Source: Eubacteriaceae bacterium (lineage in GTDB: Bacteria; Bacillota; Clostridia; Lachnospirales; Lachnospiraceae). From it: 64,000 nt of DNA. Location: positions 1-64,000 of the forward strand of contig CAJTDQ010000005.1 in the NCBI GenBank assembly GCA_910574895.1, in the 5' to 3' direction. Below are positions 1,003 to 62,221 of the stretch, one piece after another. The position numbers were made by a program, and so were the translations under genes. Below the pieces are notes generated by a model. The model was given only the letters and a program-made list of their open reading frames with translations. It was not told the DNA's origin and did not search any database. Positions within the stretch are counted from its first letter, which is position 1, and each line of letters opens with the position of its first letter.

Positions 1003-1142
1003 ACAACAGTTCAGCCATGCACAGAAAAATATAGACTCACAAGGACTGCTTGCAGGACTTTGAGTCCTTATTTTTCTGTATATGGTGAGCCATAAAAGCG
1101 AGAAGAAGCGCAGCGGATTCGAGCTTTTGGCTGAACTGTTGT
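1003..1142. repeat. Structured intergenic repeat, copy A
   Basis: An element of about 140 bp has 15-bp terminal inverted repeats (core AACAGTTCAGCCA / TGGCTGAACTGTT). Inside are two hairpins: a long stem (1021-1031 with 1069-1079, continued by GACTCA/TGAGTC) capped by GACTGCTTGCAGG, then a GCCA-AAAAGC / GCTTTTGGC hairpin. It begins 5 bp downstream of the ispD stop. A second copy at 59,819-59,964 has the same loops and outer stem but different internal stem sequences that still pair. It could be a structured RNA, a 3'-end element or a MITE-like repeat; covariation favours function as RNA. Confidence 0.8.
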
Positions 1143-10822: not shown

Positions 10823-10907
10823 CTATAGCACATCAAAATTGTAATGATTACTCAACACAAATATCATTAAAATCTGATATTCATTTATCAATCCAATCAT
10901 TACCTTA

Positions 10908-11026
10908 CCTTCTCTCATCCAGACTATACTGTCGGTTATGGAATCACACCATATCATGCCTTGCGGCTCGCTGACTTATGCACCTGCAAACACAGCCGGT
11001 AGGGAATTGCACCCTGCCCCGAAGAA
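10908..11026 (-). promoter_or_regulatory. FMN riboswitch (RFN element)
   Basis: The minus strand contains the ordered conserved blocks of the RFN aptamer: CTTCGGGGCAGGGTG, AATTCCCTACCGGC, GTCAGCGAGCCGC, GGTGTGATTCCATAACCGAC and AGTCTGGATGAGAGAAGG. The first and last blocks pair to close P1. A terminator follows about 90 nt downstream. FMN binding should end transcription of ribD-ribE-ribBA-ribH-HAD-ribU. Confidence 0.97.
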
Positions 11027-11049
11027 TTTATATTAAATTATTCTTTTAC

Positions 11050-59763: not shown

Positions 59764-59818
59764 TATTAATCAATCATAAATATTTATTTTTGCAAAACTT
59801 TTACATTTTATTAATATT

Positions 59819-59964
59819 TTGTAACAGTTCAGCCATGCGATACAAAATAAATACAGACAATGACTGCTTGCAGGCAATTGACTGTATTTATTTCGTATCA
59901 TATGGTGAGCCAAATCAGCGAAAAAGAGCGAAGCTCATTTGAGCTGATGGCTGAACTGTTACAA
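59819..59964. repeat. Structured intergenic repeat, copy B
   Basis: A second copy of the element at 1,003-1,142, in the same orientation on the plus strand. The outer stem is 17 bp. The long stem (59,838-59,855 with 59,882-59,899) has a sequence unrelated to copy A yet pairs fully except one position, and has the same loop core GACTGCTTGCAGG. ATATGGTGAGCCA is shared exactly, and the second hairpin changes from AAAAGC/GCTTTT to ATCAGC/GCTGAT. Base pairs at the ends covary too (AC/GT in A, GT/AC in B). Confidence 0.82.
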
Positions 59965-59973
59965 TAATACAGC

Positions 59974-60030
59974 GGTGAGCCAAATCAGCGAAAAAGAGCA
60001 AAGCTCATTTGAGCTGATGGCTGAACTGTT
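59974..60030. repeat. Structured intergenic repeat, partial copy C
   Basis: A 57-bp exact duplicate, save one base, of the second hairpin of copy B (59,904-59,960), displaced by 70 bp. The change GCGAAGC to GCAAAGC affects only the tip of a small inner hairpin. It ends 11 bp from the PTS stop codon. Without the first hairpin it shows that the second half can duplicate as a unit. Confidence 0.85.
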
Positions 60031-60040
60031 ACAATATATT

Positions 60041-62221
60041 TTATTCCATAATGTCAACGGCAAATAACTCCTCGCCTGCATGGATATTTCCCTTATTTAA
60101 AAGTCTGATGCGCTGGTTTTCTTTCATCTCTGTACATAGTACCGGTGATGCCATGGAAGGTGCATTTTGGTTCAGATATTTCAAATCCAGTTTTATGAGA
60201 TTATCGCCTTTTTTAACCCGGTCTCCACCTTTCACATATACTTCAAAACCTTTTCCGTTTAATTTTACTGTATCAATTCCTACATGCACTATAATATCAA
60301 GCCCTGAATCAGTATGAATTCCCAAAGCGTGTTTCGTGTCAAACACAAAACTGACAACTCCATCTGCCGGTGACATTACAATTGGTTCACTCGGTGTTAC
60401 AACAGCCCCATCTCCCATCATTTTGCCTGAAAAAGCTTCATCAGGAGCATTCTCTATTTTATCGGCTGTTCCTGTCATTGGACTTGCAATGATAATTGTT
60501 TCCCTTATTTTTTCTTTATTCGGTTTTGTAACAGCCTCTTTATCTTTTTCCACTTTGTTGTCCTGCCTTGATGTGTGTTCTTTATCAATATTCTGCGATG
60601 TTTTTACCCTGCTCTTTACAGTTTTTGCAGCTGCCCCGCTTTCAAGATAATCCTCAAAATTTGATTTTATAACTGTAACTTTGGGGCCATAAATAATCTG
60701 TACACCATTTCCTTTATGAACCACTCCGGATGCTCCTGTCAGTCTCAGTCTGGAGTCATTCACCAGTGTAGCATCATGTACGGTAATTCGAAGTCTTGTT
60801 GCACAACAGTCCACATCTGAAATATTTTCTTTTCCACCTAATCCCTCACAGATTCCAGCAGACAATTCATCTACAACCGGTACATTTTCATCATTTTGTC
60901 TTTTTGCCTCCACATCACTTCTTCCGTAAAGCTTTATCTCATCTTCATCAAAACGTCCTGGTGTTCTTAAATTTAATTTTTTGATTAAAAAACTAAACAG
61001 GAAGTAATAAATAACAAAATAGAAAACACCTACAATTACTACCCATATCCAGTTTGTCTTTTGATTTCCCTGTAAAATACCGAACAGGAACAAATCAATT
61101 AATCCTCCGGAAAAAGTCATTCCAACACCTACTCCAAAGAAATGCATTAACGCATAAGCAAGTCCTGCAAATACACAGTGTATACCATATAAAAGCGGTG
61201 CTACAAATAAAAATGTAAATTCCAACGGTTCTGTGATACCTGTTATCATAGATGTAAGTGCCGCTGATAACAACAATCCTGACACTAATTTTCTTTTTTC
61301 TGTTTTTGCAGTCTTATACATGGCAAGCGCTGCACCCGGTAGCCCAAATATCATTAGAGGGAACTTTCCTGACATAAATCTTGTTGCAGATACTGCAAAT
61401 TCTTTCACTGCAGGATCGGCTAACTGTGCAAAGAAAATATTCTGGGCACCTTCGATTAATTTTCCACCAACTTCCATTGTCCCACCAACAGCTGTCTGCC
61501 AGAATGGTATATAAAATACATGATGCAGACCAAAAGGTATCAGTAGTCTTTCCATAAATCCATATACCCATGTTCCGGCATATCCTGAATTTAAAACAAC
61601 TTCCCCCACTGCATTAATTCCCGACTGTACAACCGGCCAGATAAAGAACATCAGGATTCCGACTAATGTATATACTAAGGCACTGATAATTGGAACAAAT
61701 CTTGTTCCTCCAAAAAAGGACAATACTTGTGGAAGTTCAATTTTATAAAACCGATTGTGGAGAGCTGCTGTTCCAAGCCCCACAATAATTCCTCCAAATA
61801 CACCCATCTGAAGAGATGTAATGCCACACACATCTGCCACCGCACCTTGAAGCATATTCTCTGCTCCACCATTAATTGTAATCAGCGCACTAATAGATGC
61901 ATGCATGATAAAAAATGCAATTACTGAAGAAAGTGCCGCCACTTCTTTTTCTTTCTTCGCCATACCGATTGCTACACCTATGGCAAATAATATTGGCAGG
62001 TTTGCAAAAACAATATTTCCTGCATCATTCATTACCTGAAAAATCGCATGAAATACTGTTCCACTTCCCATTATATTTTCCAAACCATAAGTTTTTAGCG
62101 TGGTTTCATTTGTAAATGAACCACCAATTCCCAGCAGAAGACCTGCCACCGGCAATATGGCAATGGGAAGCATAAAACTTCTTCCAACCCTCTGTAAAAC
62201 TCCAAATATTTTGTCTTTCAT
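60041..62221 (-). CDS. PTS EIICBA permease, glucose/N-acetylglucosamine/maltose family
   Basis: A 726-residue phosphotransferase permease. The membrane EIIC domain (about 1-415) has PILFAIGVAIGMAKKEKEV and the signature GITEPLEFTFLFVAPLLYGIH. EIIB (about 445-525) has the phosphorylated Cys in DVDCCATRLRITV. A charged linker of about 45 residues leads to EIIA (about 570-726) with its active His in DIIVHVGIDTVKLNG. A glucose-type sugar is likely; exact substrate unresolved. A 14-bp palindrome in the leader may be an operator. Confidence 0.92.
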   Translation of the reverse strand: MKDKIFGVLQRVGRSFMLPIAILPVAGLLLGIGGSFTNETTLKTYGLENIMGSGTVFHAIFQVMNDAGNIVFANLPILFAIGVAIGMAKKEKEVAALSSVIAFFIMHASISALITINGGAENMLQGAVADVCGITSLQMGVFGGIIVGLGTAALHNRFYKIELPQVLSFFGGTRFVPIISALVYTLVGILMFFIWPVVQSGINAVGEVVLNSGYAGTWVYGFMERLLIPFGLHHVFYIPFWQTAVGGTMEVGGKLIEGAQNIFFAQLADPAVKEFAVSATRFMSGKFPLMIFGLPGAALAMYKTAKTEKRKLVSGLLLSAALTSMITGITEPLEFTFLFVAPLLYGIHCVFAGLAYALMHFFGVGVGMTFSGGLIDLFLFGILQGNQKTNWIWVVIVGVFYFVIYYFLFSFLIKKLNLRTPGRFDEDEIKLYGRSDVEAKRQNDENVPVVDELSAGICEGLGGKENISDVDCCATRLRITVHDATLVNDSRLRLTGASGVVHKGNGVQIIYGPKVTVIKSNFEDYLESGAAAKTVKSRVKTSQNIDKEHTSRQDNKVEKDKEAVTKPNKEKIRETIIIASPMTGTADKIENAPDEAFSGKMMGDGAVVTPSEPIVMSPADGVVSFVFDTKHALGIHTDSGLDIIVHVGIDTVKLNGKGFEVYVKGGDRVKKGDNLIKLDLKYLNQNAPSMASPVLCTEMKENQRIRLLNKGNIHAGEELFAVDIME

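Follow-up and report, generated by a model that had tools for sequence, protein, structure and literature searches.

Short interspersed repeats of bacteria have for the most part been regarded as parasites in decay or else as RNAs; the family described here shows marks of mobility together with strand-biased structural selection. REP elements and their RAYT partners are short hairpin repeats that often lie behind stop codons. The present element is unlike them in that Y1 does not track its copies and in that its inverted-repeat ends are accompanied by an 8-bp duplication. BOX and RUP of Streptococcus pneumoniae share with it MITE ends and a target duplication, BOX also a variable number of inner modules and SPRITE a location near the 3' ends of coding sequences, and for all three stem-loops are predicted upon transcription (PMC3049150). 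The word "compensatory" does not occur in the main text of that paper, whereas in the element described here the fold outlives its stem sequences and the mismatches are biased to one strand. The IS66 family and its MITEs resemble the element in their 8-bp direct repeats and, as far as some of its copies are concerned, in ends that begin with GTAA (PMC11946415 and the IS66 element L312), the IS66 elements seen here having only GTAA or GTAAC, and not a full inverted repeat, in common with it.

Among RNAs, the element is most like Clostridiales-1 RNA (RF01699), which the table of the 2010 paper gives as a probable RNA that is not cis-regulatory (PMC2864571). Both have, on the same strand, a closing P1, a long P2 with a GCUUGC tip and two more hairpins, and Clostridiales-1 RNA is likewise multi-copy in one genome of this genus; it differs in its long P3 and in its P4 loop. 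The window copies (loci L017 and L028) gave no match to RF01699 up to an E value of 5, and two of six own-genome loci matched below the 48-bit gathering cut-off (L037 with 38.5 bits and L022 with 37.3 bits). Such sub-threshold matches lie on the same strand and occur also in a few relatives, and one alignment seen rests mainly on P1 and P2, its 3' half being poorly aligned. The view that all copies are RF01699 was rejected, the 48-bit gathering score not being reached. Clostridiales-1 RNA is a structural sister that belongs to another family, and the element is a candidate relative of this Rfam RNA, for which no function is known. The sole own-genome RF01699 match above the cut-off is at L093 (G000:C1:84004-84155), directly 5' of an ORF starting MCGIVGYVG, which we take to be glmS; at the gathering cut-off, L093 has no match to the glmS ribozyme.

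The window, that is, the whole 64,000-nucleotide stretch of DNA that was analysed, holds two copies of the element on the + strand, where the earlier note had placed them. Copy 1 (1003-1142; 139.3 bits at 1005-1141 with the covariance model R1 described below) is composed, from 5' to 3' on the element strand, of the P1 5' arm ACAACAGTTCAGCCA (1003-1017), which is also the left inverted repeat, the long hairpin P2 (1021-1079) with its GCTTGC tip within GACTGCTTGCAGG, the short hairpin P3 TATGGTGAGCCATA (1081-1094), the P4 hairpin (1095-1127) with a CGAG/CGAG internal loop and a GCGCAGC tip, and the P1 3' arm TGGCTGAACTGTTGT (1128-1142), which is the right inverted repeat. The first full unit of copy 2 (P1-P2-P3-P4-P1'; 59819-59964; R1 149.9 bits at 59823-59961) contains a long P2 (59839-59899) and a P4 hairpin with a GCGAAGC tip (59914-59948). 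The 3' module (P3 half, P4 and P1 3' arm) then follows once more in tandem (59973-60032), so that the whole mobile unit (GTAACAGTTCAGCC ... GGCTGAACTGTTAC) spans 59821-60032. With the last tandem module as its end, and thus enclosing the extra 3' module, this unit is flanked by target-site duplications, AATATTTT (59813-59820) on the left and AATATATT (60033-60040) on the right, that match at 7/8 positions.

Both copies contain GACTGCTTGCAGG (1044-1056 and 59862-59874), ATATGGTGAGCCA and the inner part of the outer stem, ACAGTTCAGCCA/TGGCTGAACTGT, in agreement with the shared loop core, block and outer stem reported in the earlier note; as it also stated, the P2 arms are unrelated in sequence between the copies yet fold in both, and the end pairs switch from AC/GT to GT/AC (ACAACAG..CTGTTGT in copy 1, GTAACAG..CTGTTAC in copy 2). 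The pattern GTTCAGCCAT-N{20,50}-CTGCTTGCAG-N{20,50}-GAGCCA has seven own-genome matches versus none for the reversed control. Single short motifs alone are not above chance within the window; what is above chance is the combination of motifs together with the copy number. The stop codon (1146-1148) of ispD (1146-1841, - strand; PF01128, E 1e-60) abuts copy 1, and that of the PTS EIICBA gene (60041-62221, - strand; stop codon 60041-60043) adjoins copy 2 at its end. Each copy runs antisense to the genes that flank it. The earlier note claimed a minus-strand stop codon within about 11 bp of either copy, and this is true of copy 1, with the ispD stop 3 nt beyond it; in copy 2 it applies only to the extra tandem 3' module (ending at 60032, within 8 nt), the first unit ending at 59964, 76 nt from the PTS stop. 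Rfam at gathering matched only rRNA, tRNA and an FMN riboswitch in the window, the last at 10903-11030 on the - strand.

A blastn search with copy 1 of its own genome (2.48 Mb, 27 contigs) revealed a dispersed family of a non-coding, multi-copy element of ~140 bp. The covariance model R1, built from 20 copies and a structure written by hand, gave 73 matches in this genome at E ≤ 0.1, tandem modules and reverse-strand palindrome echoes included. A search of 50 loci from the own genome and 94 from relatives gave 204 matches; removal of pieces shorter than 115 nt and of duplicates left 147, of which 140 have a clear P2 (46 from the own genome) and 114 are non-redundant. One of these (L143:600-722) is a reverse-strand echo, and its removal leaves 113 copies and main counts unchanged in direction. 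A covariance model, R2, matched 96 of 150 evenly drawn Lachnospiraceae genomes at E ≤ 1e-6, with a maximum of 21 scored candidates in each genome. By comparison, it matched two of 149 phylum-drawn genomes, both of them Lachnospiraceae, and the 20 listed among the 147 without a match belong to other families. The family is widespread in a major gut-bacterial family, with diverged copies at gene ends, and a description of the repeat was not found among the titles and abstract openings returned by a literature search.

P1 closes the structure, and P2 is a long hairpin of ~35 aligned positions per arm. Its loop reads GCTTGC in 69 of 114 copies (a few more have a wider open loop) and GTTTAC in nine. 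P4, which is strongly conserved in sequence, combines a paired CGAG/CGAG, a tandem G-A motif, with a tip of three bases (for example GAA, GCA or GTA), often within GCGNAGC; the pattern used for the count picked out this tip cleanly in some of the rows only. GCGNAGC tips match mini-hairpins of DNA that are known for their high stability (PMC4686876). As the stems change, the GCTTGC tip and the internal loop of P4 persist. Single copies with 12-nt flanks have minimum free energies of about -50 to -76 kcal/mol (22 own-genome copies). In the lowest-energy folds, read by eye, P3 forms alone in copy 1 and others, and in L020, L022 and L028 (window copy 2) the P3 strands pair with P1 and P2 instead; a mechanical count, which may also catch P4, finds a P3-like hairpin in 36 of 38 own copies. 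The P3 strand might compete with P1 as a switch. Several copies carry the 3' module (P3 half, P4 and P1 3' arm) in tandem, and orthologs differ in how many of these modules they have (1 vs 2, 2 vs 1 and 3 vs 1). L147 (G017:C120:2414-2590) has extra P4 sequence relative to its ortholog L065.

On balance, and with moderate confidence, we read the element as a MITE that carries a structured RNA domain and has been retained as an mRNA 3'-end element. The first part of this reading departs from the earlier note, which had set a conserved RNA shape against a plain MITE. The element is a MITE, being short and multi-copy with inverted-repeat ends and a duplication of fixed length, and inverted-repeat ends, 8-bp duplications and shortened forms are all present in the GTTCAGCC subfamily, to which the two window copies belong. 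Young copies in other genera have ends GT(A/T)ACAG, again inverted repeats, together with 8-bp target duplications and shortened forms. The sequence ACAGTTCAGCC has 99 matches in G051, from another Lachnospiraceae genus, versus one when reversed, and 48 versus none in the own genome, many of them in facing pairs that represent terminal inverted repeats. The facing pairs of G051 are spaced at 196 bp (11), 137 bp (6), 92 bp (3) and 40 bp (3), with singles from 30 to 213 bp. Among the same-ended forms inspected there (two of 196 bp, two of 92 bp, the 40-bp forms and the 30-bp form), the 196-bp forms (L292 and L293) have a hairpin-like stretch of ~55 nt added in the P4 loop, and the two 92-bp forms read consist of P1 and P2 only.

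Target duplications were assessed in 19 GT..AC-ended elements with at most two substitutions per end, drawn from 60 loci with others dropped (15 from G051 and four from G104). Their 8-bp flanks match at a mean of 5.74/8 positions versus 3.26 ± 0.30 in shuffles, eight of the 19 at seven or more positions and six perfectly, and the signal peaks at a width of 8 (z 8.4, compared with 3.7 at 7 and 2.3 at 9). It is weaker in the own genus, where the flanks of 40 copies match at a mean of 3.55 versus 2.94 ± 0.19 (2/3000 shuffles); copy 1 matches at 4/8, and inner module ends give a mean of 2.2 (n = 18). A TA target duplication, suggested by the complementary flanks GTA..TAC, was dropped, the 8-bp direct repeats being found outside GTAAC. 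L079 compared with G017, the sole empty-site candidate, is not clean and resembles a decayed copy. PF03050 was matched in four of the 11 genomes examined and had no match in the own genome. The IS66 element L312 (G145) bears GTAACCGTCAAATAAC at its ends, with a duplication that matches at 8/8, and the PF03050 locus L313 has a different inverted repeat, which holds GTAATCATCC; neither ACAGTTCAGCC, with one mismatch allowed, nor the inner end sequence CAGTTCAGCC is present in the seven PF03050 loci L312-L318. The ends of the MITE read GTAAC in copy 2 and G051, GTTAC in G104 and ACAAC in copy 1, and not GTAAGCG. A search of twelve G051 regions for an autonomous partner returned no facing pair with a duplication of at least 6/8 at a distance of 250-3500 bp.

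The structured domain is supported by covariation. In A1, a sequence-based MAFFT alignment of 20 copies that was not fitted to the structure, 137 cells are changed on both sides and still paired, compared with 46 ± 5 in shuffles (none of 500 reaching 137) and with 22-34 when partners were slid by 1-3 columns. The corresponding values are 1114 versus 290 in A4, in which 71 diverse copies were fitted to the model and the alignment is biased towards the structure. Orthologs were compared in 74 cross-species flank-matched pairs, some matched by one flank only and a few weakly, of which 42 were alignable (at least 72% identity). In these pairs, which share species and are not all independent, 1895 of 2357 paired sites in the minimum-free-energy fold of the first sequence are unchanged, and 164 are double changes versus 41 expected from single-side rates, with pairing kept in 135 of the 164. 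Constraint on single pairs is loose, because single changes break pairing at 205 sites and keep it at 93. Covariation lies beyond that of the controls, one of the marks of a conserved structured RNA. A covariance-model search of the host and its relatives, the check put forward in the earlier note, also returned many copies with covarying stems.

The mismatches that remain in P2 are strand-biased. Among 113 non-redundant copies, isolated P2 mismatches, defined by two Watson-Crick pairs on each side and with all mismatches treated alike by the aligner, comprise 56 G.T versus 15 A.C (p = 1e-6) and 44 G.A versus 4 C.T (56/16 and 44/5 before removal of the echo). The bias is present in the GTTCAGCC type (22 to 7) and in the others (34 to 9), and was weaker in a first count that included a conserved unpaired joint (147 G.T, 96 A.C). 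A symmetric double-strand process would give no such bias, and therefore selection seems to act on the element strand in single-stranded form, as RNA or as DNA; a mutation pattern that favours one strand could add to the mismatch bias. The earlier note took compensatory change to indicate a conserved RNA shape; covariation, strand bias and orthologs agree on a folded single strand, and we infer from the sequences that the conserved molecule is RNA.

A plain MITE under no RNA selection, in which replication slippage keeps the stems paired by copying arm onto arm (template-switch palindrome correction), is in our judgement unlikely. The double changes are often A-T to T-A or G-C to C-G, that is, transversions with no G-U step to bridge them, and G-U pairs are scarce; therefore, palindrome repair at the DNA level fits them as well as RNA selection does. 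The ends and duplications are of the MITE type, and in some copies P1 perfectly complements the coding end. However, such a process predicts strand-symmetric mismatches, unlike those counted above (mutation bias could explain part); the GCTTGC tip and the internal loop of P4 persist although the stems change; and the sense-only adjacency of diverged copies to stop codons is not predicted by it. Palindrome repair may add to the covariation, but by itself it accounts for neither the strand bias nor the location of the diverged copies.

That position bears on the preferred reading of a MITE-borne RNA domain retained at mRNA 3' ends. Gene context was taken from simple ORF calls, among which a few genes may be miscalled, and the true 3' ends are shifted outward by tandem modules. 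On this basis, 38 of 58 non-redundant copies with a same-strand upstream gene start at -15 to +20 nt from its stop codon (median 4), and nine of 35 antisense copies end near a stop codon. Copies with a diverged P1 tend to start at stop codons, as the earlier note had expected of the family as a whole: 26 of 37 sense copies versus two of 26 antisense copies lie there (400-bp contexts). This sense preference, significant in the diverged copies, is not significant for the window's own subfamily, the own-genus GTTCAGCC type (8/13 sense versus 7/19 antisense, p = 0.28), and young copies in three other genera (n = 40) lie at a stop codon in 2/15 sense and 6/16 antisense cases. The frequent location of diverged, and hence older, copies behind stop codons suggests that the fold acts in mRNA. 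In seven genomes the element lies at the same place behind a gene that we take to be purA, its stems differing. At three of these loci (L107, L127 and L174), P1 is a perfect complement of 21-26 nt that extends into the coding end, its 3' arm pairing with the last codons of the gene and differing accordingly between species. This is more than the fold needs and counts against the preferred reading, as does the antisense orientation of the window copies to both neighbours. In 11 of 39 sense copies the longest perfect arm extends at least 6 nt into the gene, several arms being 7-8 nt, maybe by chance.

According to the preferred reading, the inverted-repeat ends of a small non-autonomous DNA transposon would double as the closing helix P1 around an RNA-like interior, namely P2 with its GCTTGC tip, P3, and P4 with its tandem G-A motif and G-N-A tip. 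A transposase in trans, perhaps IS66-like in view of the ends and the duplication, would act on the ends, insert the element and leave the 8-bp target duplication. Sense copies directly behind a stop codon would be preferentially kept, and compensatory change would maintain the fold of the retained copies on the sense strand across the genus. We suggest that the transcribed strand then folds where the mRNA ends, its P1 closing at the stop codon, and that the fold may protect or define this 3' end. More tentatively, and with some doubt, we suggest that the transposon family repeatedly supplies a ready-made folded RNA domain, of which sense copies behind stops become domesticated as mRNA 3'-end devices with P1 closing where the ribosome terminates; the fold, not the sequence, would be inherited down the genus, and Clostridiales-1 RNA would be a sister domesticated lineage.

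The same abutment on stop codons could reflect a bidirectional intrinsic terminator, in which P2, through its A-rich 5' arm, upper stem and T-rich 3' arm, would stop transcription in both directions, a function that we consider decidedly improbable. The P2 5' arms have 1526 A-T versus 765 T-A pairs, and there is one terminator-like site in copy 1 (+ strand, in P2) and there are two in copy 2 (- strand, in its P4 hairpins), compared with 0.3 per region in shuffles. However, the T-richness of the P2 3' arm is independent of gene context (behind genes vs the rest, p = 0.20), P4 and the far P1 arm still covary although a stop in P2 would precede them, the sequence of P4 is strongly conserved, and 24 of 114 copies lie between divergent genes. 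Less probable still is a family of stand-alone small RNA genes like that labelled Clostridiales-1 in Rfam: some copies do give full-length, same-strand RF01699 matches below the threshold (the two of six loci above), but promoter-like sites around the window copies are no commoner than in shuffles, the 5' end lies at the stop codon in most copies with a same-strand upstream gene, and target duplications indicate a DNA element.

A single-strand DNA element whose G-N-A tip forms a DNA hairpin and which is recognised by a transposase of the Y1 or RAYT type is very improbable, for although the mini-hairpin tips, the strand-specific fold and two Y1_Tnp matches in the own genome would suit it, an 8-bp direct duplication is, to our knowledge, not a feature of IS200/IS605 and mobilisation by Y1/RAYT was rejected because Y1_Tnp does not track copy number, being matched in G020, which has no copies, and unmatched in copy-bearing G002, G009, G012, G017, G018, G021 and G022.

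A family that combines marks of mobility, strand-biased structural selection, wide occurrence and diverged copies at gene ends allows a direct test of whether MITEs are domesticated as elements of mRNA 3' ends. As regards neighbouring RNA elements, the copy at L243 (G148) adjoins a Moco riboswitch, and that at L248 (G302) lies near a TPP riboswitch.
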